The notes under the pieces were generated by a model that worked only from the letters and a program-made list of their open reading frames with translations, was not told the origin of the DNA and ran no database searches. Both the position numbers and the translations under genes were made by a program. From assembly GCF_029227915.1 (NCBI RefSeq), contig NC_079883.1:5766001-5830000 (forward strand): a stretch of 64,000 nucleotides of DNA. The letters are read 5' to 3'. This DNA comes from Hydractinia symbiolongicarpus. Lineage: Eukaryota; Cnidaria; Hydrozoa; Anthoathecata; Hydractiniidae. How positions within the stretch are numbered: the first letter of the stretch is position 1; every line of letters begins with the position of its first letter. Below, one piece after another: positions 1,827-60,625 of this stretch.

Positions 1827-4800
1827 ATGGAGAAAGGGTAATAATTCTAAGTATATTCAGAAACCTATAACAAAAAATTTAGACATTTGCAAACTAATAC
1901 TAACGACGTTTTTGTTGTCATATTTGTTTCTTTGTCTTATTTTTAATACATTTTAAAGGTATTTGTTACTTCATTTATTTATATCTTATTTTTATTACTA
2001 GGAAACAGTTTGTGAGCGTATCAAATGAAACGCCATCTCAAAGAAAGCGAAGATGGCTGTCGATCAAGATCTTATGTCTGACTATGTTTTTCGACAGCTT
2101 ATGTAAGTTTGTTTATCTTTCCAACTTAAGAGATGACCGAAGTTATTAAATTCGTATTCGTCAGCATTGACAAGTCCATGTTGACTCGTGTACGCTATAA
2201 AGAGTGGAATAAACAGTGAAGTGATAAAAAGGTTTAATTGATTTTCTCAACTTTTTAAAGAAAATCAAATATAAGATTATAAGTTTTAATGAGATTTTCT
2301 AGTTCTGTTTGTTTTCTACAAAGTAGTCGCATACTTTTTATTTTTACAAAAAAATGTAGCCGTACCAGAACATCAAACTTTCATAGCTTATATATTTATA
2401 ACAAACGTAGAATATTTTTGTTTTCACATCTAAACACTGAGAAATCAAAGATCTCATATTTTATGAATTCTTCAAAAGAAACGAAATAAACATAAGAATA
2501 GTCCAGTGTTGTTTTATGAAAAATAATAACCGTTATAAAGAACTAAAATTGGACATTAAAAAAATTTCTTTTACCTAAGCCAAAGTGTTTACATAACCCA
2601 CAGGAGATCTGCAAAATTAAAAAGCTTACAGTATATTTACTAACTTTCTCACCGAGGAATGTTATTCTAAATTTTAATACGTCTTTTTTACACGTCATTG
2701 CACCTCAATATTTCCTTTTTATGATTCAAAAACTGTGAGCACTTAAAAAGTTCCTTTTACCGCCAAAATATTAAACTTATGGCGCCATATTTTATGTCAA
2801 TTTCTTTAATGTGTTTGTACCTTTTCCTTTAGCCTTCTCTATCGTGCTCTCCTCCATATGGCCTTATTTACAAAAAGTAAGTATACCACCCTCTAAAACA
2901 ACTAAAAGCAACAGGAATGGCGTTAAATATTATTTTTAACAATGTTGCTGAAATGTATCTTATTTTCCGATTCTTCTTCTCGCCGTCTCGATAGTTCACT
3001 AGGTTAATCCTAAAACTAAATCTCTTTCTTTCTTTCAATCTCGCGTATTTTATTTAGGTAGGAGGTGATCCTAATTTGACGCCAATTTATGCTGGATGGG
3101 CGAATGTCGGGTTTCAACTGGCAGGAATATTTATAGACTTTATTATTGGTCACTGGACTAATAAGCGAGGCTCTACGGAACCAATTCTAATATCTTTAAT
3201 ATTTTTTGGTGTCGGGAATTTTCTTTATGGTTATGCAGAAGCTTTTGGCAGTTTTGGCGTTCCAATGATTATACTCTCGCGTACTTTGATTGGCTTATCA
3301 ACAGGTACGTTAAATCTGACACCTCTATTTACCAGTCATTCAGCTATCTAAAAAATCACCTCAGTGAAGTGCCAAAAGTAAGTTTTCTAGCAGAATCCTT
3401 TACACTGGAATAGTCAAGAATCGAGTTCTCTCTTTTTAATTTTAAACGACGTATATTTAAACAATAATTTTAGGTGTCGATGTGGTATCACGTGTTGTAC
3501 TAGCAGAATCAACTACGTTAAAAGAACGCACAAGCGCCATGGCATACATGTCCATTGCACACGGACTTGGTTTTTCATTTGGACCAGGTAATTGGCGTAT
3601 ATTCTAAATACACTTTAGATGAAGCTTTTTTTAATGAAATTTTACACTTGTGTCATTCTAAGAGACGCATTCGCTAATGACTTTCTCCGACCAAGTCAGA
3701 ATAAATGGAAAAGAGTTTTTGCGTATCCTTGTTTTCTCTTTAATTTGATTTCACTTTGAGATATAAGTTTATAAACAATACTGAAAGATTTAAAGCTTTC
3801 AGAAAGAAAGACACCACATGTCACTCTTTTTATCAAATACAACGCAATTTTATTCTTATTATTTTATTTTATTATTCACATTTACCCTGATATTTCGTTT
3901 GTAGCTGTTCAACTGGCAACAATACCATTAGGTGATAAAGGTGTCTACATATCAACTCTTAGATTGTACCTTAACCTTTATACTGCGCCTGCATTTGCCA
4001 GTATATTGATCGCAATAGCAAATATAGCCATTGTGATTGGATGGTATCAAGAATTTCATGTGGATATATACAAGGATCATGAAGGAGATGAGAGTATCAA
4101 TAAATACAGTAAGTGATGATAACAAAGGAAAACTTATGTAACACTGTACTCTTAAAAGACAATTTTAAATGCAAGGGAGTTTCGTTTACTACGAGTGCGC
4201 ATAGCTTTGATTCTATAAGAATTATGTACGTAGAACAAAAGTTCATAAAGTATATCTGAGGCACACTGAGTTTTTCTTAATTAAACCTAGGTTGAAAGTG
4301 GTAGTTGTTTCTTTTGTAGAAATATTCATATTTACTTTCATAGAAAAACTTCTACGAGCCCATGGATTACAAAACACAAAAGCTGACCCAATTGCAATCA
4401 TCGCAACCCTCGTCCTTTATTTTGTTGGACAGAGTGCGTTTGGTCTTTATGAAACGTAAGTTTGTATTAGTAAACACGACAATATACAAAGAAAAAAGTA
4501 TTACAAATACATTTTTATACAACTATTTTGATTTTGCTTTGATTAATGTGATATTCTTTTAATTTTGTTGTAGAATATTAACACCATTAGCTATGGATGA
4601 ATTAGCATGGAATGGAGAAGAAACTGCTTTGTATGTTGGTCTTCTTTTCCTTGCTGCTGGAATAATAGCTGTTTTTACATTTGGAATTTCTGACCTTCTT
4701 GAAAAAAGGTGAATTTGTAGACCAGACCTTATTTACTTAATAAACGAAATTTAGTTTTTTTATTTACGGTTATTGTTTTTTGTTTAGATTCAACGAGCGT

Positions 4801-5750
4801 CTCATATTACTTGCTGGATTTCTGTTAGTTTTGCTTGGTTTCATATCTCACCTTCCATGGGGTACAACATTTCCAAAGATTAAACCAACAGGTAGCTAAA
4901 ATATTTTTTTTACAATAATGCTATTGGTGCATTTATAAGCTAAATGTTCTCCTATAATGCTTGCAAAATCTTATCGTGGTTCACACGTAAGTATTTTCGA
5001 AAAAGAAATCATCTCAAATAACAGTATTCTTTTCCACTTTTACGCAGTACCATCTAATGCAACTTCTGAGATTCTGCAATCTGCAAAGGAACTTGTTGGC
5101 TGTCCTGAAGAGTATAATTGGTGTACAACTACTCCACAAATCAAGCTTCCGCAGTTTATTATTGGAATGATATTTCTTTCAATTGGATATCCATTTATAC
5201 TTGTGATGACAACCACAATATATTCAAAGATTTTAGGACCAAAACCACAGGTGAGAAGAATCACAAAGTTGCTAATTTAGAGAATAAGGACTTTGACTTT
5301 AACCTTTTTAGGCTATTACTTCGACTTGGTCTGCCTTCAAAGTGTCCTGTATCACCCATGCTATTTATTTCAAGGAAAAATATTCCATATGTACTTGGTG
5401 ATCCAAAAATCTTATTTACATTTGCATGTGTCTTTCTTTAGGGTATAATGCAAAGCTGGTTTGCGGCTACCGGTGGAGCAGCTAGAACAATAGGTCCTGC
5501 TCTCGTCACTTATGCATACGTGGAAATAGGACCAAGATGGACATTCTTTAGCGTTGATGGATTACTGATGATATCCACTGTGTTATTAATTCTTGCATAC
5601 AAAAAACTTATACCATATCATTTGTTTGTTCTCAGGAAGAACAAAGCAGCATTAGTTACTATAGACGATGATAAATTAGCATTAACCGGAAGTTTGAGTT
5701 CGGACGATTCTGCCTACTCAAATAATTATGTGCTTATGTCAGCGGTTTAG
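1827..5750 (+). CDS. MFSD8: MFSD8 (CLN7)-like lysosomal major facilitator protein
   Basis: Eleven exons: 1827-1837, 2002-2102, 2833-2876, 3058-3304, 3474-3587, 3905-4108, 4344-4455, 4574-4708, 4788-4891, 5048-5250 and 5442-5750. All phases close, giving 527 residues; human MFSD8 has about 518. Family landmarks are visible: RWLSIKILCLTMFF then SSIWPYLQK in TM1, RTLIGLSTG in the first half, LKERTSAMA after TM4, SKILGPKPQ before the last exon, and GIMQSWFAATGGAARTIGP with GPRW in TM11-12. MFSD8 is a twelve-helix membrane protein of lysosomes and endosomes; its loss in humans causes a neuronal ceroid lipofuscinosis, and it has been linked to endolysosomal chloride conductance. The first exon (four residues, M-E-K-G split) is inferred only from its phase-2 donor and an AAATGG start context, so the true start could lie elsewhere. 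The tail contains acidic/Ser-rich sequence. A possible AATAAA lies at 6394. Confidence 0.9.
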
Positions 5751-8225: not shown

Positions 8226-11200
8226 TTAATTTGGGATTCCCTCCAGAGAAGCAATATTTTTATCTTTCGTGCTCTTCTTTTGCAGGCGATCAGCTATCAC
8301 ACCAACAATAAAGCAGACCAACGATATGACAACCATGGCCGATAACGTGATTAGAAAGGTCGTGCTTTTCTCTGAAAATGGCGATGAAGTCACATTTGTT
8401 CCTCCCTTGTGTGTCACATTCTTTCTCTAAATAAAATATAACAAACTAGTCGTTAGCCAGTGGAAAAATCCACGAGTTCGCCCGTCGCAGCTAAGCTACC
8501 ATTTTGCGTGACAGACAGACGGACGGACGAACGGACGGACGGATACGGGCATTATAATATAGACTAGTCGTTAACCCGTGGAAAAATCCACGGGGTCACC
8601 CGTCCTTTATATATCGCATTTCGTGTTTCTGTAACAGGACGCGGTTTTCGCGGACAGACAGACAAAATACGGCTATTATTAAAGAAATAAAAAAAAATCA
8701 ATAAATATAATCGTGTAATTAATACTGAGGAATACAGCAAACACTGAAGTCAAAAGTAAAAGACGAAGGCAAGATGTTTTGAAACTTCATGTGTAATAAA
8801 CAAAGAATAAGAAAATATTTACTGTAGTGTCGATTGTCTTTTGAGATCAGACATTTTTCAAGATAATGTAAAGAAAATTATAGCAAAATTTAAAAGTATT
8901 GGAACTATTTCATGATTGTTACTATAGCTACATTTTTATATATTAAATATATGGCTGATTTACATCTAAATTATAGCGCTTGTTCATGCAGGCGAAAAAA
9001 GTACCATGTAACATAAATTTCTCATTTATAGATATCTTTGAAACACATGTTGAAAAAGTCACTGAAATTGTTTTTAAAGTTGCACCTTTTAACCACGGGC
9101 ATATTTCTCGAGTTTAAGTTATCTATATTTGTAAATTAATTTAATGTAAGTGTTGCAGTTAGAATTTCATTAGTGATATGTTTTACGTTGGTGTCCTTTT
9201 AAGGATGCAAACAATGCTTAATGCAAAAAAAATGAAATGAGTAGAAGTATTTGTTACTCAATTATATCTTTCTTTATTTCATAATTTCTTAGACTGGACA
9301 TTAACATTTGTTTGTTTTCAAAGAAAAGAAACCACATTACCTTTTGTCCTGTTGAGTATATAATATCAATTGCATCTTCGTTAGTATCCATAAAAGAACG
9401 AATTAAACGTGTTATATTTGAATTTTTCGATACGACCCCCATAGCATTTTTTCTTAAGGATACCTTGCTGTAGACTTCATATTTGATTTTTTCATCTGAC
9501 CAATGTCCTTTGAAATACAATGCAGTAAGCTCTTCAAATGCGACGGCTAAAAAAAACGCGAATAATTCTACAATAAAGCATGTATGGAAAACAAGTGAAG
9601 CTAAACAATTCTAAACTTCTATTAATAATCCTGCATCGACGCTACTATAAAAACCTAAAAGAATTGTTTAAAATTTTGCGTGTCTAAACGTATCACGATT
9701 CACGTTAGCTCTAGATATTTCTTCTTTATAAGGCAGCTTATTCATATTATTGCAGCATTTCTCCCACTTGAAAACTCAAGGAGTGCAATGAGACTCTATA
9801 TACCACAGTTGATTTGGTTCTACTCCTTCGAGAATTCTCTGGTATTGGAATCAGGTTCACTATATTTACTTTAAAATACCTTTGCATACCTGACACCTCA
9901 TCGTTGTCCAAAGCCAGCTTCAATGCCAAAATTGTTGGGTATACTAAAAAACATAAAAATAGATACATCACTGTAGCAGTTTGAGTACAGTCAATGATTT
10001 CTAAACGATTAGCATACAAATGATTGCCATCCAAAGAAAAAAGGAGATTGACAAAATATTAGATAATACTCTATATTTTGATGCAGTTAGAAAAATTTGG
10101 AAAGCAATATAATGCGTAAAAACCTTTTGGTGTCGCATATGCTCTATAAGCGCCAGATAAAACAGCCGTGTTGTTTGCAATCACACCAACCTGAGAGGTA
10201 AAATCATAATATTGACGCCAAAGAAAATAAAACTCTCCATATGGCTTTGTTGCTTAAATAAAAGGGAATCCTACATTTTTCCAAGCAGCATCAAAATTTT
10301 CATTGCGTCCAACTTCAGTGGTAAGTACAGATGTAATTGTGGCAGTGTACATATTGAAGATAGTAATACCAATGAGAATCCAACACACTGCAAATAACCT
10401 GGCGCTCACTGATTGTGGAGTTCGATCACCATACCTGCATGAGAGTATAATAAACGCTTATTACCTCTGCCTTCCTTCGTACCTGTCTGGTAGAGCAATA
10501 AGAACAATAACAACAAGAACAATAACAGCAAAAACAAGCAGAAAGAACAACCTCTTTAAGGTAGAGGCTAGATCATATTGTCGCGACTTACCCAACCGTA
10601 GTCATGGAAACATAAGCCCACCAAAATCCTTCAAATGGTCCTCTTGGAAACCTTCTTGGAAACTGACTGTTGTTAAACCAAGTATCCTGAGGGAAATACA
10701 TTAAGTTATACCTATATTATTTAATCAATAATTATATGGTTTACCATTGTTATAATTTTTAAAATCTGTCCTTACGAACACAATATGATAGATGAAAATA
10801 TAATAGAATTCTACATCTTCATAAAGCCCAACTCTTGGAAATCACAGTACTCTACTGTGATTTTCAATAACTCTAGTGATTTCCAACACCTCCAACTTTT
10901 TTGAAGTTATTTACAGATTCATTTTAGTCAAGTTGCATAAGTAGTAATAAGTAGCCAGTTTATTTTTTAATATACAATTCATAGTTAATAATGCTCATTC
11001 TTCTCTCCAAATTTTTTTTTAAAAAAATTACGTTTCCACAGGAATCTGCGTGAAGGCCAGTGGGAGACCCAGTAAAGTTTTTCTTAACACTGGGAAATCG
11101 AAATAGCTGAGGAAGAAACATTTACGCTGAGTTGCAAACGAAATTCCCTGCAGTCAGAATACTGACCGCGCTCTTTGATTGGTAACTTTTGTTGTTCTTT

Positions 11201-12883
11201 GCTGACGTGATCATTATTGGGAATTCTGTGTTTTGAGCACAAATGTACGAATAACCTCACTCACCTGAACAAATATCATTTATTATCGCATTTTTATGAG
11301 GGTAAGATATAGCTTTGTACTTATCGGTTGATGTTAAATCAGGGTTTGCTCTAAGAAATTATTTTGTGTTGATTGATTGATTTAAATTTTAGGGACTTGC
11401 TCTGACACACCCATTGGGGTCTAAGCTTTCGTATAAAATTTTAACATCCTCAAAGAAAGCTTAGTTACCTAGCCTATGAAAGCAATGGAAATTTCAAACA
11501 AAATACAAATATTTCCGATAACCCACATGTTGATACAAATACGATATAAAAATGATTGTTAAAAACATACTGACGTACCATCAGCCATATTATTGTTCCT
11601 GCACAAATTGACATGGTGAATGCCACAACAAAGAGAGGCCATGTTGAAGTAATGGAATAGATCATTGCCGTGAGTAAGTCGCTTGTAGTTGCTTCAGTTT
11701 TCTTCCCAAGAAATGAAACAGATTCCAATTCGAATAAGGTGACGTAAGGTGAACCGAAAAATGTCCGGCTGTGTCTTCCATTTTCGATAGGCATTGCAAT
11801 ATCAGCATTATTTTCAAGGGAGTTAAATTTCTCGCTAAAGCCTTTTGGAGGTAAAAATGTAACGTTGTTGCAGCTAAGGCAGCAATATTCGCTTAGTATC
11901 TTTCGTAGCAAAACTGTATAAATGACAGAAATAAGTCTCATTAAAAACGCACTCTGATGTATTTGATTCCCAGCATATATTTCGTTTTTAATTGGCTTCA
12001 TTTTTCACTATAGCGCAAAAAGCTTAACACTTTTACTGAGCACATACAAAGTTTGACATGATTACCGCTGGTGGAAAGATTTTTTTAGCGCTCAAGAGCA
12101 ACTCTTAAGCTCAACGAGATAGTGATGTTGTTGATGACGTCGTGTTTCTCTCTAGCAGTAAATAGCCAATGATATTTGAGTATTCTGACTTATACGAGGT
12201 TTCGCGAAGATTTGCGTAAAGAGCGTTGTTCCCGTGTTGTTCCAGTTCGGAGCGTTCTTTTAATTTTGGGACTGTAAGAAGGGACTCTCATTCGCGGGAG
12301 GCGCTTATTTGATTAAGTGCGATATGCTCAAAATTCGAATTAACAAAAATAAGAATGGACAAACCTACTAAAAATGAGAAGTAGTAATCCCAGCAAAACT
12401 CCTGTACAAACGCCAGCTCAAGTTACCAGAGCATCGGATTCAAGAAGATGATATCTTCGCACGTTACAAAGTACAAAGAAAGACTTCATATAAATTTTTT
12501 AACCAAGGGTTAACATACAACAAGCATAGAAAAAAACGTTAAAGCGACGTGATGGGACCTACAGCCGCCTGGCTAAAGAAGAAAGAAAACAAAAAAATAA
12601 AAATAAAATTAGATAAAGAATTACCTTGTAATATACCACTAGCTTTTCCTTCTTCATCTGTGACACAGTAAGGTGGCCAGTGTGAATACGCAACGACGAT
12701 ATCTCTCCTGCATAAACTGTTCAATCTCTTTACTACAGAGCAATTTATCATACTCTTCAGATAATCTGCGTATTGATATCGTATACCACATTTCGTTTCT
12801 GACAGCCAGTTTTCTAATGAAATACCCCCTCCATCAAGGACGGCACATCCATAAGCAACGAGTATTAAGAATCTTAAAATCAT
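8226..12883 (-). CDS. Ionotropic-glutamate-receptor-like channel A with K+-type TVGYGD pore
   Basis: Eight exons, in transcript order: 12883-12625, 11913-11579, 10686-10592, 10434-10275, 10190-10124, 9943-9890, 9546-9341 and 8426-8226. Phases close to give 458 residues. The start is the first in-frame ATG, followed by a hydrophobic signal peptide (MILRFLILVAYGCAV). Order of parts: S1 half of a periplasmic-binding-type domain, with DIVVAYSHWPPY and an ENGRH arginine where iGluRs bind the ligand alpha-carboxylate; TM1 (WPLFVVAFTMSICAG); re-entrant pore with FWWAYVSMTTVG|YGD at about 228-233; TM3 ending FNMYTATITSVLT, comparable to the iGluR SYTANLAAFLT; S2 with AFEEL carrying the acidic ligand residue; TM4 (FLITLSAMVVISLVCFIVG); and a short Lys-rich tail. 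There is no large amino-terminal domain. The filter predicts K+ selectivity, as in bacterial GluR0. The ligand is unknown. Paralogue of the + strand gene at 33.2 kb. Exons 5 and 6 are short, and the exon 5 donor (GTTTTT) is weak. Confidence 0.88.
8445..8685 (+). repeat. Tandem pair of a dispersed repeat with GTGGAAAAATCCAC palindrome
   Basis: Two neighbouring copies of about 118-120 bp, each starting actagtcgtta and carrying the palindrome (c)gtggaaaaatccac(g), then a GACA/GGAC microsatellite and a run ending in an ataat/attatt tail. They lie in the last intron of receptor channel A. Related copies occur near 59.72-59.83 kb, sharing tttatatatcgcatttcgtg, and, in opposite orientation, near 62.08-62.34 kb. 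No coding capacity; a non-autonomous mobile repeat is likely. Confidence 0.7.
10839..10863. repeat. Perfect 11-bp hairpin in receptor channel A intron 2
   Basis: Arms aaatcacagta and tactgtgattt are separated by a three-base loop (ctc). It lies within the intron between exons 2 and 3. Function unknown; it may be a remnant of a foldback repeat. Confidence 0.6.
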
Positions 12884-33220: not shown

Positions 33221-36200
33221 ATGAATTGGCTGTGTTGTGTTATGATGTTTTATTGCATATATACCGCATTGTTGTTGGGTTCTGTGGCAAGCAAGAGTAT
33301 ACGCGTGTCAAGCTTTCTTGGGCCACAATATTGTCATGTAAGATATGACTTCTTAGACGCGATAAAAGATGACGTTACCTGTGAAAATGTAGTCAAGCTA
33401 AATCCAATATGCGGTCGTGACATTAAAGTTCTCTTCTCCGAGTCCCCACCCTATATACACACTGACACCAACGGAGAAGTTCGTGGAGTGTTGAGCAGTA
33501 AGATATATTTCTGTCGTTTTTTATCTTTTCTTCGTCTCATAAAATCTAAAATTGGTTCCTGAATATTTGCATAAAAAATGACAATAGATTCTTATTTTTT
33601 GGTTTGTTTGTTTGTTTGTTTCTTTCTGAAAAAAAGTCACTGAAATCTATTTTTAGAGCCGTAGCAGTCTGTAATCATGATGGGACTTAATGCAGTGGCT
33701 AATGTAGTTTTATAAGTTCGCAGACAGTTTGCAACAGCTTTCCTGGTGCTTCTAAGCGAATGTCAGTGTATACGAGTAGTCCGGAAATTAATTTAATTCC
33801 CTCTTAAAAAATCAACAAAATCAACGCCTGCTACAACCTGGATTTCTCAGTCTTAATATCTGTAATACCTTCATTTAAAAAATGTATTTATAAAAGTGTC
33901 ATCTATACCGGTCTGCTTGCTGTAAAGCATTAAAAATTTGACTAACAAAATAAATCAGTTAAACATAATATTTCTTTTTCCTATTAGATTTTCTGAAGGA
34001 AATTCTAATCGAACACTGCTGCCTCGGCTGTAATAACATTACCTTTCTCCCAGCGCTTGGTGGGATAGAAAAGTTTGTAACCTACTTATCCAATAACAAC
34101 ACTGCTGATATTGTCCTACCTGTTGAAAATGGACGGCATGCTTCCATGTTTTATGGCAATCCCTACATCTCTCTCATACAGATATCAAAAGTGTTATTTA
34201 TTAGAAAAGGCAAAAAAGTTGCAAATTCAGATCTTCTTGAACCCTTGCTGGACAGTACACTATCAACATGGCCCCTTGCTGTTATAGCGATTGCTATGGC
34301 AGTATGTGCTGGTACAGTCATCTGGATGATGGTAATATTTTTGTTCTTTTTGTTAATCGATGATTTTTTAAAATTCTATTTTTCCTTCTATCCTTTCTGA
34401 ATTCTTATTTTCTGCGTTGATACGTTCGTTTTGCATCTGTCATACTGCATCCTAAGAAGTTGATTAAGTCTCACAAAGATTTATTTTCGTGAACTGTTGG
34501 TGAATTTAAGAGAATTTTCACGCATAAACCTTTTGGTGAATATGGATAAAACTTGCGAAATTTGCGAAAATTAATCTTCGAAAAAATTAATCAACTTAAA
34601 GAACAAAAAAACAATTGCAATATATCGGCAATCTTTGGTGGTTTATTTGTAAAAAAAAACTGATCTACCAATCAGCGAAATCCTTTTGGGTACGTATTTG
34701 CTGACTATTTTTACACATGAGGTAACATGGGAATGCAGACAGACATTTCATTCACTGAATGTATTAGTGAAATATTCTCTAGTGCAAATAAATTGAACTG
34801 CTTTTAGGATACGTGGTTTAACCGTCATCAATTTCCTAGAAGTTTTCCAAAGGGACCGTTTGAAGGATTTTGGTGGGCATTCGTTTCCATGACAACAGTG
34901 GGGTGAGAACTAAAGCACTTTTTGGCAGTTGTTCTTGTCCCCAGGGGTTTTTGCCATTTTGAAGGCGAAAATCTCTGTGGACGAAAATTTTAGCTGAAGC
35001 GTAATGTTGCTTAAGTTTTTGTATTTACCAGACTCAACTTATGCGCAATCCGATTCTATTTAATCACGTTTGTCTTCGTGTAAAACTTTGTATGACTTTT
35101 TGAACAAGGGAAGTTTTGTTGCTGTTTTATAATACCTGCGGCTTGATCCTTTTTTATTTACTACAAGTTGACTACTCCTTGCTATTTGAGTCGTTTTTAC
35201 GAGGACCTAGTTTCGTGTTAATTATAAAACATGCAAGCAGGACTCCATATGCGCATGCATTTTTCTCAGAACTACAGCATTGAAGGTGAACAACATTCCA
35301 CAACCTCGTTCACAGCTCATTTTAATTATTTCGATAACAGCAGCTCTGTAATAACAACTCACATGTCGAGAGACACTGCTGACACGGTTGGACGTTCCAT
35401 GCACCTTTCTTCCTATTCTAAGAAGTCATACATATTTATATTTATATTCTAATGTAGATACGGTGATCGTACACCACATTCAGTGGCGGCAAGATTATTC
35501 GCTGTCTGTTGGATTTTCAGTGGAATCATTGTTTTTAATATGTTTACTGCGGCTATAACTTCTTCACTTACCCTCGCAATGAAAGATAATGATGATTTTA
35601 ATGTTTACAAAGAAACTGTAAGTGCATGCCAGGTTTCTAACTTCGTATCCTCAGGCATTGCTTTGACTTTTATATATAGTTATTACGAGGGAAAACGAGG
35701 AATAATATATTGACTCCATACATATAGTGGACGATGTGCTAACTTAAAAGGTAAAAAATTCCTTATGGTTTTTGAGCTTCAGAGAGTACTTATATAACAC
35801 GAATCAGGATAGCTTTGGCTATGATTGCAGCGTGGAAATTTGCAGACTAGAATGTGTGAAAACCAGTTCCATGGACAACTGAAAATTACTCTATCAAAAA
35901 GCAACAAGACTTCAATTAAATTATTTGAGCTATATATTAGTGGTACAAATAATACTTGATTAGAGTGACTTTAATATTACACTTGGGAAGGAGGGAATGT
36001 ATTCGGTTTTTCTGTATTCTTGTCTGCAAAATACCGCCTTGCTACTGCCAAAAAATATTCTATTTCATTGTTCTATAAGTACTTTGGAGGGGAAAATGTT
36101 TCACCTTGGAAATGGCGTATCTTCTATTAAATGTCATGACAATGAATACAATATTAATCCCGAGTAAATGGTTAACTGGTTTTTGTTTTAAACTTGCACG

Positions 36201-37639
36201 ATTCTCGCTCCCCCACACAAAGCTAACGCACAAGAAGCTCAATAAGATACCCAAACGTGTACTGCGACTTAACTTGGAAAGAAAAGCCGGACCATTGTAA
36301 AACAACACAAGCTTAAAATTACGTGGTCGCACTTAAATGTACATGATTACAATATCATTCTGAGTGTTCTTTTATATTTGCAAATTTTTAGGTAGGAGTG
36401 TTGGGCCATTCAACTGCGACAAATGTTGGTGTACTTCAAGAAAATGCGAAACCAAAATGTAAAAATATCTTTTGCGTGTAATTCTTATTATTTGTATTTT
36501 TTGAGCTAACATTGATTGGTTTATCATAAACAAAACCTAAATGCGTATAATGTCTCTCTTTAGATTATGAAAGCATCGATATGCTGATCTCCGCTTATGA
36601 AAAGAAGGAGATATACGGTAGGTTTCGAAGAACTGAAGGTAGAAAGCAGCAGTTACTTAATTGTGATGAGGAAGGTGGGTGGTTGGACGGGCGGTGTTAT
36701 GTAGAAATTTTAGAAATTTTAGGGACTTTAAATAAAGTGGAAATAGTATGAACTCTAGGATTGCATAAAATATTTAAACTTTCTTTGTAACCTCAGGGAA
36801 AAGCTGTTGTGGCCATCCTTACCTAAGTACTCATTACACTTTTTCAGTTTACTTAAAAACGTAGGTGGTTTCATAAAATTAGAGAGCAGAAATAAAATGT
36901 GGGAGAAAAATAAAAAATAAAACCAAATATTTTTATTTTTGTGTCTTTTTAGCAATGGCAATGGAAGATCTTGAGGCATTTCATTACTTAGAAGAGGTGA
37001 AACAACATGATTCCTCATTCAATGTAAAGATGACAACAAAATTGGAACATAACGCACTTGGGTTGGTTAGCAATTCCAACATTATAGGCATGCTGAAAAC
37101 ATTTTTTGAGGCGAATCAAGATAGCAGAAGTATAATGACTGGACGATCGTTGTATATGGTATGTAGTAATCATTCTCGTGCCCAGTACCCTTCCCCTAAA
37201 GGTGATTATATCGCTCGTTCTAATGTTAGAAAAGTGACAAGATGCCCTTTCACGAGAATAAGAATAGTTGACGTCTTTTACTCATGTAACATCAAAAGAT
37301 GACAGTAACGTCCTTATGCATGCAGTTCAAGAGGTTCTCTAACCAACATTCCATTATGTCTGAAAATGACCAGCAAACTGGATCCTTAGCTATATGCCCT
37401 TCTTTCTTATCATCTAGGATTTTTATGATTCGAATTTTTCTAAATACAAGATTCAACATCAACACAGCTCTCCCTTCTCAGCGACGCACTACACATTTTA
37501 CATCACCGTTGGTACAATGTTTTCTTTTTCGCTGGCCTGTATTTTAGTCAATCTTTTGATCACATCCAAACGATGTCCATGTAAAAGAAATACCGAAGTG
37601 ATTACTCAACAGGAGCGCCACACACATTTCAACATGTAG
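33221..37639 (+). CDS. Ionotropic-glutamate-receptor-like channel B with K+-type TVGYGD pore
   Basis: Eight exons: 33221-33497, 33988-34331, 34808-34902, 35458-35617, 36392-36458, 36564-36617, 36953-37158 and 37418-37639; phases close to 474 residues. The start is the ATG at 33221, followed by a signal peptide (about residues 1-24). S1 contains RDIKVLFSESPPY and ENGRH with R142 at the position of the iGluR carboxylate-binding arginine. TM1 is about 186-207. The pore reads FWWAFVSMTTVG|YGD, filter T237-D242. TM3 ends FNMFTAAITSSLT (265-277). S2 contains GHSTATNV and AMEDLEAF, with E337 at the acidic ligand position. TM4 is about 426-449, with a basic Cys-containing cytoplasmic tail. The layout matches an animal iGluR lacking the amino-terminal domain, but the filter is that of a potassium channel, as in bacterial GluR0 and the rotifer AvGluR1. 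Ligand unknown. Exons 3-7 have exactly the lengths of the minus-strand paralogue (95, 160, 67, 54, 206). Confidence 0.9.
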
Positions 37640-44302: not shown

Positions 44303-46039
44303 ATGTACAAGTTTCTAGCTCTCGCAACGGTAAGATTTCCACATGTATTTTGTAGTTCCTATTAGATATGACGATACGACATAGTGTATCTTTATTTTAA
44401 AGATACACTATGTCGAAAGAAATACCCATAATAGCAACTTTTAACAACAATTTACAGATTACCAATTTACAGATTTTTACTATTATGACAAATACAGACA
44501 GGCGCAATATTTTAAGAAGCACTTTTGCCTCTTTTGTGGAATGTTAATGACATTGACTATTTTTTCACAGGTTTTGATGGTATGCACAGTTGCAAATGCC
44601 AAACCATCACGAATCGTTTTCCCAAGTAAGTATTGGCTCAATCTAAATTCTCAATTAACGAAGAAAACAACAACAACTGAAAAGCTTGTTTAAAGTATAA
44701 GACCAGCTAAGTTCAAAGGGTACGATACTTAAAGTACGTTTTGCTTCTCTTCGCTACTTCACGTTATGAAATAACATTCATTGTGGAGTAAGTCAGGGGA
44801 AGGACACAGGTTTTTGTATGCAGTTGTTATTGCCCTAAGAAAAATGATTCCCTGGAAGATTTTTTTTATATTTTAATTATTTTATCACTGTTCCGCCAAA
44901 AGTTTTTGCCAAAAAAAGCGCTAATAACCAAAAAGCAACGGAGATGAAATGTTCAACAAAGTATCTAAAAACCAAACGTGTGCCAGTGTAAATAATGTGA
45001 TTATAATTGAAAAAAATAGGATAAATAATACTTAATGAGGACAATTGAAGAATACAACTATTCCCGAATCGGATCACTAAGCGGTTTCTTAAAATATTTT
45101 AACATTCTTTTAGCTGACCCACCATGCTCCGGAGTAAACTGCAGAATGTATTGTCCATTTGGTTTTGAAACTGACTCAAATGGCTGCGAAATATGCAGGT
45201 GCCGAACAGGTTAGTAAGATCGGCTCAAAGTCGGCTCAATATTTTTATTACTAGACGTCTTCAAAATTTGTTAAAGTTTTTATATTTCTCGCAAAAGGTG
45301 AACCATCTGTCAAGAAACATCGTCTTGAATGAGCAAACACTCAAAAAACTTCAATGAAACCCGATTGTTTGTTCAGCTTATTGTCACCTTTCTAGAATTT
45401 TATAACATTTTCTCAATCTGGTCCCCAGGACCCCTTTTCGCTCCCAGAACGAGATTAATATTTTCCTTCAAATCCCATTACCTTATCGGGAAAAATGGAG
45501 ACTAAAAGAAGGTCGCTAAATATTTTTAGTTGACAAAAGTATTAGACACTGGTACAAATTTTATCAATCCTTACTGACTTAATTTTACCCATCTTCGTCC
45601 CCACGGCTCTTTTTCTCTTTCTGACATCTTGGATTTTCGCCGTCCGAGATTGTCAGAAAGAGAAAAAGAGCCCTGGGGACGAGATTGAATTATACCAACA
45701 TAATCACGTTTTTATTGATTAATTTTTGGAAGATTCTTTGTTCAAAGCAAGCACTGTTTGTTTACAAAAAGTTGTTAAAAATGGTTGGCTGGTAAAAAAA
45801 TTTTAGTTGGCAAAAGCTGATTGGTCAAACTGTGGTCACTGTTTACCAATGCTTTTTCTGATAAGAACATTCCTATTAATCGCAATTTTAATATGATACT
45901 AAAGTCAAGAAGTGTTAGAAAAATAATTAATATCATTTCTTCTGTTATAGAATGCCCACCAGTATGCAGAATATATTGTCCAAATGGAAACGTAAAAGAT
46001 GCATATGGCTGTGACACCTGTAAATGTAAACCATTTTAA
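44303..46039 (+). CDS. Two-domain antistasin-like secreted protease inhibitor
   Basis: Four exons: 44303-44329, 44571-44625, 45114-45209 and 45951-46039, encoding 88 residues. A signal peptide (MYKFLALATVLMVCTVANA) is followed by a short linker and two six-cysteine antistasin-like domains. The first is C-SGVN-C-RMY-C-PFGFETDSNG-C-EI-C-R-C; the second is C-PPV-C-RIY-C-PNGNVKDAYG-C-DT-C-K-C, ending KPF. Antistasin domains inhibit serine proteases of the trypsin/factor Xa class; in Hydra they are made by gland cells. Each domain occupies one exon, and the domain exons start in phase 1, allowing domain duplication by exon shuffling. The P1 residue is plausibly the Arg in the C-R-M-Y or C-R-I-Y segment, but this is inference. 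A perfect intronic hairpin and a foldback repeat lie in introns 1 and 3. Extracellular; digestive or epithelial defence roles are possible. Confidence 0.92.
44377..44415. repeat. Perfect 18-bp hairpin in antistasin intron 1
   Basis: The left arm cgacatagtgtatcttta and right arm taaagatacactatgtcg are exact reverse complements separated by ttt. At 48 bases into the intron, it would form a very stable stem in the transcript. The loop is too small for a typical miRNA precursor. Confidence 0.9.
45594..45683. repeat. Long foldback repeat in antistasin intron 3
   Basis: About 90 bp. The left half runs cgtccccacggctctttttc then tctttctgaca; the right half is its near reverse complement (tgtcagaaagagaaaaagag then ccctggggacgag). 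Arms are over 30 bp with few mismatches around a GC-rich loop (gccgtccga). Best-preserved member of the CTCGTCCCCAGGG family. Confidence 0.85.
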
Positions 46040-47352: not shown

Positions 47353-47724
47353 TTATTGAACGCAACAGGAATCTTTCTTTTTTGATTGCAAATTTTCAGT
47401 ATTTTCCGCAAATTTAGAGTCCGTTGCAGAAGTGTGGTGATATTGTCCATCATAATGTTTGCTACCTTTCAGTTTATATTTATCACGTATGTTACTTCGT
47501 AATTTCTCACGTTCTTCATTTTTCTTTCTGTGTTCTTCATCTCTTTCTTGTTTCGCTTTTTCTCTCTGCTCTTCCATTTCTTTGACAGAATCCTGTCTTT
47601 TCCTGTTCTCTTTTATTTCTTTCTCCTCTTCATTTTCCCCCAGTATACTTGTCATATTTTTCTTCACGTCTGCTTTTATAGAAGCCGCTTTGTTTTGAAC
47701 CATGACCTGCGTCATTTTCTCCAT
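47353..47724 (-). CDS. CPLX: Complexin with C-terminal CAAX box
   Basis: A single coding exon of 123 residues. The start codon sits in a near-ideal context (CCACCATGG); a strong acceptor (polypyrimidine then CAG) ends at 47751, so at least one leader exon lies upstream. The protein is highly charged and helical. An accessory-helix-like region (about 30-55, Glu/Lys-rich) is followed by the central SNARE-binding helix (about 55-86), with the family signature EREKLRSNIRDKYKLK; Arg and Tyr residues there contact the syntaxin/synaptobrevin groove in known complexins. The C-terminus is C-C-V-Q, a CAAX prenylation motif, as in complexins of invertebrates and vertebrate CPLX3/4. Complexins clamp and trigger SNARE-mediated fusion in regulated secretion. 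Target: synaptic or secretory vesicles, probably held on membranes by the lipid anchor. Confidence 0.93.
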   Translation of the reverse strand: MEKMTQVMVQNKAASIKADVKKNMTSILGENEEEKEIKENRKRQDSVKEMEEQREKAKQERDEEHRKKNEEREKLRSNIRDKYKLKGSKHYDGQYHHTSATDSKFAENTENLQSKKKDSCCVQ

Positions 47725-47750
47725 GGTGGATAAATGTATTTCAGTGTTAC
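47725..47750 (-). other. Complexin 5' UTR part of the coding exon
   Basis: Between the acceptor at 47751-47752 and the ATG lie 26 bases of leader. No in-frame ATG is upstream in this exon. The matching donor was not located. Confidence 0.6.
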
Positions 47751-50351
47751 CTGAAACAAGAAAAAGATAAGTACATTTGCGTGGGTCAATAATCTGCGCA
47801 TGCCTAATTTCGCGCGCAAAAAATTGGAGACTTTAGACACATCGGACACGAATTGAAAGACACACTTGCATAATATCGCGAGAAAAGATTTAAAGAGAGA
47901 AAATATGCATGGTATCATGAAATTTTATCAGTTTGAAGTGACAAGCTTATTATTGAAAAAATATTGTACACTTTGTTCATTTTATTTAATCCTTTTCGCG
48001 CCTCCTAAAATTTGCGAGGATTCAAATTTGCGCAGTCATGCCTGCACGAATCTCAGGATCATGACGTATCATATTGTTGGTCCTACGTCAGCTGTTACAT
48101 GACCATGCAGAAAGAAGCAAGGAGTAGAAATAATAAGCTAAGATGATCAATTATTTCGCAGTTAAATTTCCTTTTCTGTCAATCGCGAAATTATATAGCA
48201 ACTGAACTTAAAACTCAGTAGCTATATAATTATTTTCGATATTTTTTCAACACAACAAGAACTTAAACGTATTTTTCGTTTATGTTACACCGGCTTCCAT
48301 TATAAATGAACCTCTAACAACCTGGAACAATTCTCTTGTCTCTAATGACAGCTACTTAACTGTCATGCAGCAAAAACAGTGAAAAAGTTAGGGTAAATAA
48401 TTAATCAGAATCTCAAACATTAACGAATAAAAATAATAAGTTGTTATAGCAACCAACGGAGTACAACATTCATCGTTGAATAAAGTGTGAGTATTTCATA
48501 ACGATGTATAATACATTCATTCACAATTATGGCTACCATTATGGAAGCATCGTCACGTAAGAAACCTTATCCACCCTCGTCCCAAGAGATTATTTCGAGG
48601 GTGAAACTTTGTCCACAGGTTATAGATACAGTATTTCTATGACAGGAAAACCTTTTTCTGTTGGCAATTTAAAGCCTAACAAATATGTAGATGTTCTGGA
48701 GAATAATAAAAATAACAACATCAGCATAATGACACTGTCAATTTTTTAAAAAACGTGAAAATTAGGTCTGAGAACGAAAGTGGTATTGTAGCCTTTTACG
48801 ACTTTTTCGGATGATTTAGTAGCTACTACGACTTAAAGAGTTAAAAACTTAAAATTTAAGGAGAGACCAGCAAGCCTCAAATCAGTATAAAAAATATTGA
48901 TTCTTCAAAAATAATTAAATTGTATACAATTAAGCAATTAAATATTTAAAGCTTTACCCCTCCTAACGTCTAAGGCCTGGTTCTCACTTACCTTGTGTTT
49001 CTGTTTAGTAAAGCGAAATTTTTTACTGCGCGAAAGTGTCATAAGCTAAGCGGGGTGGAACAAAGCATAAAATTTGTAAACAAAAGAATATAAACAAAGG
49101 AGAAGAGTTTAATAGTCGCGCTGAAAGAATTCACCACTCATAAAAACTTGAACTACCATCATCGTTATAATCCTTCAAACCAAGAAAACATGTAACGTAA
49201 AGGAAACGAAACATGTTCAGTAAAAAAAATATTGCAGCTTCAAATTATGATTAACTAACACCCTCCATCGTTCATATAATCATTCTAATACATCTCGTTA
49301 TTCACCGATTCAAAAATGTCAATTTAGCATAACTAAAAACATCTGCTGCTGAGAGCTTGTTTTGTTTTCGTTTAATTTAAAGATTGTAATTTACCGACAA
49401 ACAAAAGAGCTTTTTTTGCAAATAAATCCCATTGTGGTTTATCTTCATTTCCCATTGTTTTAGCGCGGCTTTAAATAAAAAAGTAACGCAGTAGGAGAAC
49501 ATTTTAAATTGGTAAATCGTTCTCCATCTTTCTAACTTTCGGTATTTTAAATCACTGGCCAGAATATTATCCACGGGTTTGCTCGCCAGCAAATTATTTA
49601 CTCAGCGTGGGATCCAAAATGAAGCTGCGTGCATCCATTTTTAAACACACAAATTAAGAGTTTTAATAAAGGAGATTACTCGGTAGCCCGGGTTCACCTG
49701 TAGCTGTTTCTTATTTCTGTTCAAACTTCTGAAAATTTCTTTGTTCTTTTTAAGTCTGTCACTAAAGTCTCTCATTGGAGCTCCAGTGCTTACAACAAAT
49801 GCAACCATTTTTCCAGTTAACAACATCTGGTTTAAAAATGTACCGATATTGTGATCCAATCTTTAAAAGCGCAATAAAACCCCCAATATTTTCCGCAAAA
49901 GTAAAACATTAGCTCCAATTCTTCCGACGAATATATTTGGTTAATCTGTATTTCTTCCTCCCGTTTGCACGAAGTAATAAAAACTCTGCGGAGAAGGGAG
50001 GCAACGGGTATGAACACATAGATACCCTGGGTTTGATACCATCTTCCTTGTGCAGAGGAAGGTAACACGTCCTGGTATTAAGGTGGAGAAATAGCACAAA
50101 AAGCTTAGTGCGAACTTTTGACTCTTTTATTTAACTTGTTTTGACTCGTGATCGTATCTGCTGAAAGGGTGAATTTGTCGCGCTTATTAACAGTTTCATT
50201 TAAACATAAATCGAAGAAGGATAAGAAAGCTAAAATCTTCTTCTTCTTTGGAAACAATTCGAAAATACGTTGCATGCATTTGGCTTAAAATAATATATTT
50301 AACAACAAGTCGATCAAAGCCATCTAACAATTTAGGTAAAAAGAAACTTAC
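47751..50351. other. Upstream region of complexin
   Basis: Should contain the complexin leader exon and promoter. Two CRE-type half sites, TGACGTA near 48062 and TACGTCA near 48083, lie about 320-340 bases upstream of the exon. A degenerate member of the foldback family is near 48573-48603. A minus-strand coding-like stretch (about 49690-49855, frame containing GKMVAFVVSTGAP) has AG and GT at its edges but could not be joined in frame to the possible exon at 50352, so it is not called. Confidence 0.4.
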
Positions 50352-58565: not shown

Positions 58566-59087
58566 TCAACTGCAACTGCATGCACGAGTGACATTGACTT
58601 CTTTAGAGTGTTGCGTATTGTCATGGCAGTTCAGCATAACTTTTTTTAAAATGACATGTTTTGGTCTACATGTTGGCACAGGGGATTTGGATTGGATTAT
58701 TTTCCCAACAAATAGTAAAGGCTTTGCTTTCGATAAACAAGAACCAAAACACATTTTATTTGAGATAATCACAGGCTTGCAATTTTTGTGGCGTATAGTC
58801 TGGTGAAAATGTATTCCGTGGCAAGTTATTCCTCTTATGTTCATAAGTTTTGCTAATTCTTCTCTGTTTTGCTTTGATACAAAGCCATCAGCTGATATTT
58901 TCGTTGCGAGATGACTCATTTTGCTGTCGTGAAATGTGGCTTTGATGGGATGTGAATGCGAGAGTAGCGTCTCGAGCAAAACCAAGTATATTATTAAAGT
59001 TGTGATTGTGGTGCTAGAATAGACAAAAGACATCATATAAAAATGAAATATGCTAAATACTGGAAGAATCAAGGCTAGGATATTCAT
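58566..59087 (-). CDS. Gremlin/DAN-family cystine-knot BMP antagonist
   Basis: An uninterrupted 173-residue frame beginning with ATG. The N-terminus is hydrophobic over about 45 residues; a start at the second methionine pair (residues 18-19) would give a more standard signal peptide. The mature part contains eight cysteines (89, 103, 113, 117, 140, 154, 170, 172) in the DAN-domain pattern: C-x3-(H/P)-x-x-Q-T-I-x4-C, then IISNKMCFGSC, then TCRPKH with LKKVMLNC and a final ACSCS. The Q-T-I, N-x-x-C-x-G-x-C and C-x-C elements match gremlin and cerberus/DAN proteins, secreted antagonists that bind BMP ligands. A single-exon coding region is usual for vertebrate gremlin 1. Likely a secreted regulator of body-axis or tissue patterning; which DAN subfamily is not certain. 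Confidence 0.88.
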   Translation of the reverse strand: MNILALILPVFSIFHFYMMSFVYSSTTITTLIIYLVLLETLLSHSHPIKATFHDSKMSHLATKISADGFVSKQNREELAKLMNIRGITCHGIHFHQTIRHKNCKPVIISNKMCFGSCLSKAKPLLFVGKIIQSKSPVPTCRPKHVILKKVMLNCHDNTQHSKEVNVTRACSCS

Positions 59088-60625
59088 ATTTCTTTTACAA
59101 ACACCAAATATCTGGATTTAAAAAAATCGAGATTTTTGTTTGCTGGTGTTAACAAATCCAGTTTTGTCCCTTGTTTTATTTCGTGTATTAATCACGAAGA
59201 AATGCATTACAATATTTTAATTCCCTCGTAACAAAATAATTGAGTATTGATGGGTCTATCAAGGATACATTTGCGCATGTAAATATGCGAAATATTTAAA
59301 TTCCATATAAATACAATTGTGTCTCGTACGTAGTGTCTCGACAATTCAGTGAAATTGATTTTTAGGGTTTTTTAGACAGTCATTTAATTCAAATTAACGC
59401 TTAATATAGAAAACAACGCACATTTTCTTCGATTACTTGTTTTTGTTTCAAATTTTCAAAAACGCGTTTTTGTTCCAAATTCCACACAAGGCGTTTTTGT
59501 TTCTACTTTTTTATAACACGTTTATTGTTCGTATCTCAATTAGTAACTATATATAGGCTGCAACAAGGATCTTTTGTTTGTTGTGACTGCTCCTTGGTGT
59601 AGAAGAAAGATGTTTAATCAAGACAAACGTTACCACTATGGATAAGATCAGAAATACTTTGGAGGGTTTTTGTACAAACTCATATTGCGCGGAGATAAAT
59701 CAACGAGTTCGCGCAGAGACGTATCCTCTGGGTTAATCCACGGGTTTTCCCATCCTTTATATATCGCATTTCGTGTTTCCGCAGTTTCTGGTGTGCAAAT
59801 AGACAGATTACACGTATTATTAATATAGAGATAATAAAATGCACATTTTTTATAAGAACAAGTTTATAAGAACACGAGCTTCATATTTTACCCCAAAATA
59901 AGAACAGTTTCCGTTTGAAATCATTGTCTTAAAAACTAGGAACAACTAAGTCTGACTTTAAAATAATCCAGAAACGTAAATTTATTTTTTTAGCTTATGG
60001 TCTTTTCTTTTCTCAAAGACAATAACTGCAAAGTACTATTTAAATTGGCCCGATTTTCCATGGACATAATTATAGGGCTCCAGTTGCAACAACACCAAAG
60101 TGCCTGAAGAAGTGATTAGATTTGGTACGTCTTCGATCACAACAACCGCATTTTATGTTTTCAAAAAAGAAATATCGAGCGCGGGAAATTGTGCAGGATG
60201 TTATTTCCAAAGCGACTCGCTGCTCCCTATCCCCAGAGAACCGTAATTTGTCAGATATAAATTTTCGCGATTTCCCCTTGTATTTAATAAAAAGAACTCC
60301 AATGTAAATAAGATGAAGCTAAAGATCGAGCTAACAGTTTCCATTCATATTCCATCTTTACCATCACACCTTCTCGAACGAATATACGGAACGACAACAA
60401 CTCCTTATGGCAAAACGATATGAGGGAAGAGCTTAACAATCGCATTTTTCTCATAGAAAAAACAAAACAAATGAAACTGAATTTTTATTGCAGAAATAGA
60501 AACACGATGTGTTGTGGAGTTGAAGGAACTTTAACAAAACGTGTTTAAATAAGTACAAAATAATAAAAAAATAGATAACTTCAACCCAAGAGATATTTCA
60601 GAAAGTCTTCTATCTAAGTCTGGGT
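59088..60625. other. Upstream region of the gremlin-like gene
   Basis: Probable promoter side of the minus-strand gremlin-like gene. Contains one dispersed-repeat copy (59718-59825) and no supported exon. A 61-codon frame at 60122-60307 has no recognised domain. Confidence 0.45.
59718..59825 (+). repeat. Dispersed repeat, related to 8445-8685
   Basis: Shares ttaatccacgggttttccca and tttatatatcgcatttcgtg with the copies in the last intron of receptor channel A, and ends in the same gacaga...tattat type tail. Confidence 0.65.

Follow-up and report, generated by a model that had tools for sequence, protein, structure and literature searches.

Potassium (K+)-type ionotropic glutamate receptors (iGluRs) are represented, in the source passages available, by bacterial GluR0 and by AvGluR1 of the bdelloid rotifer Adineta vaga (PMC11479355, PMC12226733, PMC12332018, PMC3483616). 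In these passages AvGluR1, the one animal receptor there credited with a K+ filter, is treated as an oddity; it is termed highly atypical (PMC12226733) and thought to be the first eukaryotic receptor of its kind (PMC11479355). SYTANLAA is given as the gate motif of metazoan iGluRs (PMC3483616), and the iGluRs of Nematostella are regarded as cation-selective (PMC13335744). A chimera of an AMPA-receptor ligand-binding domain (LBD) and a viral K+ pore was reported as a working glutamate-gated K+ channel (PMC6385376), so that a ligand-gated K+ design is feasible. No mention of a cnidarian iGluR with a K+ filter was found in the passages available from the open-access literature, including PMC6307864 and PMC12226733; a count of the word 'potassium' in the main text of PMC6307864 gave 0. 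Here, 64,000 nucleotides of the genome of Hydractinia symbiolongicarpus, a colonial hydroid of the Hydrozoa (contig NC_079883.1, forward-strand positions 5,766,001 to 5,830,000; the window) were analyzed. The window contains an iGluR-type gene with a K+ filter, channel B, and a paralogue, channel A.

Gene structure, filter and fold of channel B

Channel B consists of eight exons at 33221-37639 of the window on the forward strand, spanning 4,419 bp with GT-AG boundaries at all seven introns. The spliced coding sequence of 1,425 nt encodes 474 residues and a stop. Features are listed below with their support, which includes matches to the relative P0001; TM denotes a transmembrane segment and P the pore helix or loop.

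33221-33497, + strand: exon 1, signal helix and start of S1, residues 1-93 (GT donor, frame, P0001 match)
33988-34331, + strand: exon 2, remaining S1, R142 and TM1 (AG/GT; P0001 91%)
34808-34902, + strand: exon 3, TM1-P linker, P-helix and filter through base 2 of the first filter Gly codon (AG/GT; P0001 100%)
34892-34902 joined to 35458-35467, + strand: K+ channel signature TTVGYGD
35458-35617, + strand: exon 4, filter YGD and TM3 (AG/GT; P0001 match)
36392-36458, + strand: exon 5, start of S2 (AG/GT; P0001 match)
36564-36617, + strand: exon 6, S2 (AG/GT; P0001 match)
36953-37158, + strand: exon 7, S2 including E337 (AG/GT; P0001 91%)
37418-37639, + strand: exon 8, S2-TM4 linker, TM4, cytoplasmic tail and stop (AG, stop codon; P0001 86%; TM4 in the P0001 model)

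P0001 is an uninterrupted open reading frame (ORF) of 467 residues, 89% identical to channel B over 99% of the query in a protein search, with matches in all eight exons. Its source is three contigs, the longest of 1,687 bp. Since channel B spans 4,419 bp, the P0001 ORF is most simply read as a spliced transcript, and it matches all eight exons. The junction between TVG and YGD is therefore very probably formed in the mRNA. A retrocopy is possible in principle for P0001, and its three contigs are compatible with that. Chance or a splicing artefact was ruled out for channel B by the seven GT-AG introns together with this intron-free relative. The public H. symbiolongicarpus model LOC130657206 (P0002, 329 residues) is 100% identical to channel B over 69%. 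It begins at the residue equivalent to Met146 of channel B, leaving out the signal helix and most of S1.

The filter of channel B reads FWWAFVSMTTVGYGDRTP, and the third intron falls within its first Gly codon (34901-34902 and 35458). A Pfam match to Ion_trans_2 with an E-value of 6.2e-15, beside a weaker one to Lig_chan, marks the filter as no chance occurrence. TTVGYGD was exact in 164 of 169 rows, comprising 167 listed relatives and both channels. The other five rows carried TSVGYGD, TTVGFGD, TTIGYGD and TTVGYGG (one each), or started downstream. Filter and pore helix are strongly constrained in the family rows examined, the pore being nearly invariant, and from TTVGYGD channel B is likely K+-selective. 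The pore helix and filter resemble those of voltage-gated (Kv) channels and KcsA (Shaker/Kv1.2 at ∼1e-7; KcsA and Kv among the best 60 of 206 PDB rows). Channel B differs in having no voltage sensor; S1 and S2 enclose its pore, which is likely inverted.

AlphaFold models were inspected as single chains for P0001 and for the Nematostella relative P0041, the former standing in for channel B at 89% identity. In the secondary structure of both, signal helix, S1, TM1, P-loop, TM3, S2 and TM4 follow in that order. No S1-S4 voltage sensor was found in either model, a single TM segment preceding the P-loop after the signal helix and S1. All of the best 50 Foldseek rows listed for each model were iGluRs. 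AvGluR1 rows numbered 0 among 50 match rows listed for P0001 and two among those for P0041; absence of a family from such match lists was rejected as evidence, being too weak. Residues 473-511 of P0041 form a long C-terminal helix after TM4, not seen in the P0001 model, that is perhaps a coiled coil for assembly. A sequence-only reading of this DNA had proposed an eight-exon gene, a canonical K+ filter in the spliced pore and an S1-TM1-P-TM3-S2-TM4 architecture; the gene is real, and filter and architecture were both borne out.

The cnidarian family, its bacterial kin and channel A

Two protein searches, from which the best 120 of 251 and the best 120 of 280 matches were listed, yielded at least 167 distinct relatives among the matches listed. 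All species-named rows among these were cnidarian; most rows carry no species name and enter the counts for the family but not those for cnidarians. Named relatives came from hydrozoans (Hydractinia, Hydra, Clytia), a scyphozoan (Rhopilema), anemones (Nematostella, Actinia, Actinostola), stony corals (Porites, Pocillopora, Stylophora, Montipora, Acropora, Oculina) and octocorals (Dendronephthya, Xenia, Paramuricea). Members of a subgroup around P0041, with named species ranging from Actinostola to Hydra, were 52-78% identical, a level that points to a gene already present in the cnidarian ancestor. Alignments comprised channel B with 57 of the 120 proteins from the first search (A1), 92 of 120 proteins of 380-620 residues (A3) and 73 of 167 proteins (A4).

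In a Pfam scan of 58 members, Ion_trans_2 was matched in 58, Lig_chan in 56, and CUB and Ig domains in 7. EGF or FN3 domains were annotated in a few rows among the matches listed (precomputed Pfam annotation). No LIVBP-like amino-terminal domain was present among the 11 Pfam families matched at E ≤1e-3 in the 58 members. Conserved S1 cysteines lie at positions 64, 103, 104 and 107, and a TM4-like hydrophobic stretch was found in 146 of 149 family rows vs 0 of 72 bacterial rows. Judged by sequence similarity, channels A and B are members of a many-gene cnidarian family with a K+ filter and TM4.

Kinship of the LBD was examined with a profile of 13 constructs from which the pore had been removed. 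Synechocystis GluR0 (4.8e-7), Nostoc GluR0 (1.2e-3) and solute-binding proteins were retrieved, and no eukaryotic iGluR was among the 26 rows at E ≤10; by this profile GluR0 is the solved structure closest to the family LBD. A prokaryote-only genome collection was also scanned, and the best 80 of at least 442 relatives were kept (L001-L080), among which are relatives spanning S1, pore and S2. GluR0-like K+ receptor ORFs occurred in records titled Bacteroidetes, Chlorobium, Marinobacter, Myxococcota and others, beyond the cyanobacterial examples. Each bacterial ORF was started at its first ATG, and full S1 was checked in some only. Over residues 78-306, a stretch that includes the pore, L001 matched NMDA receptors at 1e-17; its LBD alone matched GluR0 (4e-18 and 1e-17) and NMDA 2D (6e-11). 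It serves as a rough control for the family profile, a single-sequence search and a profile search being not strictly alike. Family and bacterial LBD sets were compared with hhalign at 98.6-99.2%, the lobes having been cut from a joint alignment.

A FastTree phylogeny was built from 149 family rows (147 of the 167 proteins, at least 440 residues long, plus both channels) and 72 of the 80 bacterial ORFs (340-420 residues). The family formed one group with support of 1.0, separated from the bacterial rows by a branch of 1.43; several inner nodes were weak (0.24-0.57). The tree holds family and bacterial rows only, and placement among eukaryotic iGluRs is beyond its reach.

GluR0 (Synechocystis Slr1257; Nostoc) shares with the family a TXVGYG filter and a related LBD. 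The family differs from it in TM4 and the conserved S1 cysteines, in the introns of channels A and B, in an Arg that is mostly missing from the ligand site, and in the CUB, Ig and EGF modules of some members. AvGluR1, likened here by description and not by sequence comparison, is also said to have TM4, and is a rotifer oddity where the cnidarian family has many genes. Metazoan AMPA, NMDA, epsilon and lambda iGluRs have the same segment order, with a whole-chain fold resemblance to AMPA and NMDA chains; the family differs in having neither the SYTANLAA gate nor, in the 58 members scanned, a LIVBP-type domain, and its LBD profile does not reach them. The sequence-only reading had named GluR0 and AvGluR1 as closest parallels, and this is supported. 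It had caught a small part of the picture, which takes in a many-gene cnidarian family and, in channel A, an intact paralogue in the window. Its label 'iGluR-type' is right for topology and fold; in sequence, the solved structure closest to the LBD is bacterial GluR0. The family may thus work like GluR0, with a eukaryotic TM4 added.

Channel A lies at 12883-8226 on the reverse strand and encodes 458 residues in eight open, in-frame exons, with the same K+ filter. Its internal exons of 95, 160, 67, 54 and 206 nt are identical in length to those of channel B.

12625-12883, - strand: exon 1 (P0003 94%)
11579-11913, - strand: exon 2 (P0003 82%)
10592-10686, - strand: exon 3, 95 nt as in channel B, filter TTVG (P0003 97%)
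10275-10434, - strand: exon 4, 160 nt as in channel B, filter YGD and TM3 (P0003 match)
10124-10190, - strand: exon 5, 67 nt as in channel B (P0003 match)
9890-9943, - strand: exon 6, 54 nt as in channel B
9341-9546, - strand: exon 7, 206 nt as in channel B (P0003 84%)
8226-8426, - strand: exon 8, TM4 and tail (P0003 98.5%)

P0003 matches channel A at 81.6-98.5% in pieces, without introns, and appears to be its counterpart from another species. A pseudogene was ruled out, 8 of 8 exons being open and in frame. The alignment of the two channel proteins covers 452 residues, of which 193 are identical. Within filter codons 236-245, 7 of 10 codons differ, all silently. Nonsynonymous (dN) and synonymous (dS) divergence were 0.16 and 1.44 in the pore (TM1-TM3) and 0.75 and 1.26 in S2, with dN of 0.48 in S1 and 0.99 in TM4 and tail; dS is near or at saturation (infinite in S1), and the values can be trusted only for how regions compare.

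Ligand site, proposed mechanism and rival explanations

R142 of channel B is encoded by CGG at 34134-34136 and E337 by GAA at 36964-36966; the Arg stands in R-x8-P-Y spacing in both channels. We take the R142 site to be equivalent to GluA2 R485, which binds the alpha-carboxylate, and the E337 site to GluA2 E705, which binds the alpha-amino group. The acidic site held Asp or Glu in 114 of 121 rows of one alignment and 146 of 149 of another, and site 299 held Ser or Thr in 103 of 121. The family thus retains half of the amino-acid site, and the pocket keeps part of its D2 side.

Given the gene structure, filter, fold, segment order, family and pore constraint seen in the sequence and models, channel B is proposed to be one subunit of a K+ channel of the GluR0/AvGluR1 type, tetrameric and gated by an extracellular ligand (probability about 0.65). 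S1 and S2 would form a two-lobed extracellular clamshell, and TM1, P-loop and TM3 an iGluR-oriented pore lined by the TVGYG filter, with the P-loop entering from the cytoplasm and TM4 packing outside the pore as in eukaryotic iGluRs. We infer the membrane orientation and the tetramer; ligand gating is plausible. Closure of the clamshell on a ligand would open TM3, let K+ flow outward and hyperpolarize the cell, an effect that follows if K+ selectivity and ligand gating both hold. In channels A and B, which have both the Arg and the acidic residue, an amino acid could be that ligand.

Several observations weigh against this assignment. The Lig_chan match of channel B (E 4.5e-6) fell below the gathering cut-off (27 vs 30.8 bits), and channel B alone matched K+ channels and no iGluRs among the best 60 of 209 PDB rows. 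Whole-chain TM-scores of the P0001 and P0041 models were low (TMq 0.29-0.47), and the net charge of the TM1-P linker is slightly negative (-0.9). SYTANLAAF was not found in TM3 of channel B, which there reads NMFTAAITSSL; the commonest gate pattern in the family was SIFTATVT (38 of 169 rows), the pattern missing 32 of 169. Arg was present at the ligand site in only 5 of 121 rows of one alignment and in 11 of 149 of a second. The latter puts the Arg of channels A and B in another column, so these counts depend on the alignment. The strict ungapped motif R-x8-P-[FY], counted free of alignment over 153 of the 169 family rows and 75 of the 80 bacterial relatives, occurred in 5 of 153 and 61 of 75 respectively (shuffled rate 2.1%). 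A looser motif, R-x8-[PS]-[FYLMI] (26 of 161 family, 69 of 77 bacterial), was dropped, many of the 26 being visibly unrelated stretches.

R142 and E337 had been put forward in the sequence-only reading as the residues at the amino-acid ligand position. Both are where it placed them, and the acidic site is kept in the family, but Arg is no family rule, and its rarity in relatives ruled out R142 as the mark of an amino-acid receptor family. An amino-acid ligand is reasonable for channels A and B; glutamate as the ligand of channel B is unproven. For most of the family an alpha-amino-acid ligand is doubtful. With Arg missing and the acidic residue kept, an amine or some other ligand lacking a carboxylate is as likely, and so is a role independent of any ligand.

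The same loss of Arg beside a nearly invariant pore would fit a K+ channel whose clamshell no longer binds a small ligand, being either constitutively open or controlled by a partner protein, by pH or by adhesion via CUB, Ig or EGF modules, such as the CUB and Ig domains of 7 of the 58 scanned members and the EGF or FN3 domains of a few listed rows. Retention of the acidic residue, of Ser/Thr 299 and thus of part of the D2 pocket, as well as of Arg in both Hydractinia channels, makes this unlikely. A pore with a K+ filter that conducts poorly or not at all, in a subunit altering other receptors, would be compatible with the divergence of the channels in S1, S2 and TM4/tail; the strong constraint on filter and pore helix renders it highly improbable.

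As to origin, a metazoan AKDF, NMDA, epsilon or lambda iGluR that regained the K+ filter by convergence is distinctly unlikely, since the LBD-only profile led to GluR0 and solute-binding proteins and to eukaryotic iGluRs in 0 of 26 rows, while the LBD of L001 does reach NMDA 2D in the rough control described above. Horizontal transfer from bacteria into an early cnidarian (or earlier) ancestor, followed by gain of introns and TM4, is a somewhat better but still rather unlikely account. It would explain the GluR0-like LBD, the prokaryotic relatives covering S1, pore and S2 (from a prokaryote-only collection) and the cnidarian naming of all species-named rows. That naming, however, rests on searches covering non-cnidarian eukaryotes poorly, the branch between the groups is long (1.43), and an old K+-type iGluR passed on by vertical inheritance would fit just as well.

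Beyond the proposal of channel B as a ligand-gated K+ channel subunit, a broader picture is offered tentatively, at less than even odds. Cnidarians may hold an ancient multigene class of ligand-gated K+ receptors beside ordinary iGluRs, giving fast, direct hyperpolarization; clamshells would mostly have switched from the amino-acid Arg to other ligands, CUB/Ig, EGF and FN3 modules would tie K+ gating to surface cues, and fast inhibition would use K+ instead of chloride. With a conserved family spread over hydroids, jellyfish, anemones, corals and octocorals, K+-type iGluRs would belong to the lasting toolkit of one animal phylum. Such a family may offer fast inhibition without chloride channels, with a chemical signal silencing cells directly, and would bear on the question of a K+-selective stage in the history of animal iGluRs. 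As relatives occur in the laboratory animals Nematostella, Hydra, Clytia and Hydractinia, the idea is directly testable.

Other ORFs and domains in the window

An ORF matching complexin/synaphin was located at 47356-47832 on the reverse strand (PF05835, 1.1e-12); its C-terminal end, CCVQ, is a possible lipid-anchor motif. A DAN-domain cystine-knot ORF, possibly a secreted signalling antagonist, lies at 58569-59117 on the same strand (PF03045, 8e-15). On the forward strand an Antistasin domain was found at 45821-46036 (PF02822, 1.4e-7), and pieces of a major-facilitator transporter at 3058-5750. Of these pieces, 3058-3348 matched Sugar_tr at 7.6e-7 (above cut-off) and MFS_1 at 1.4e-7 (below cut-off), and 5445-5750 matched MFS_1 at 5.3e-4, below cut-off.

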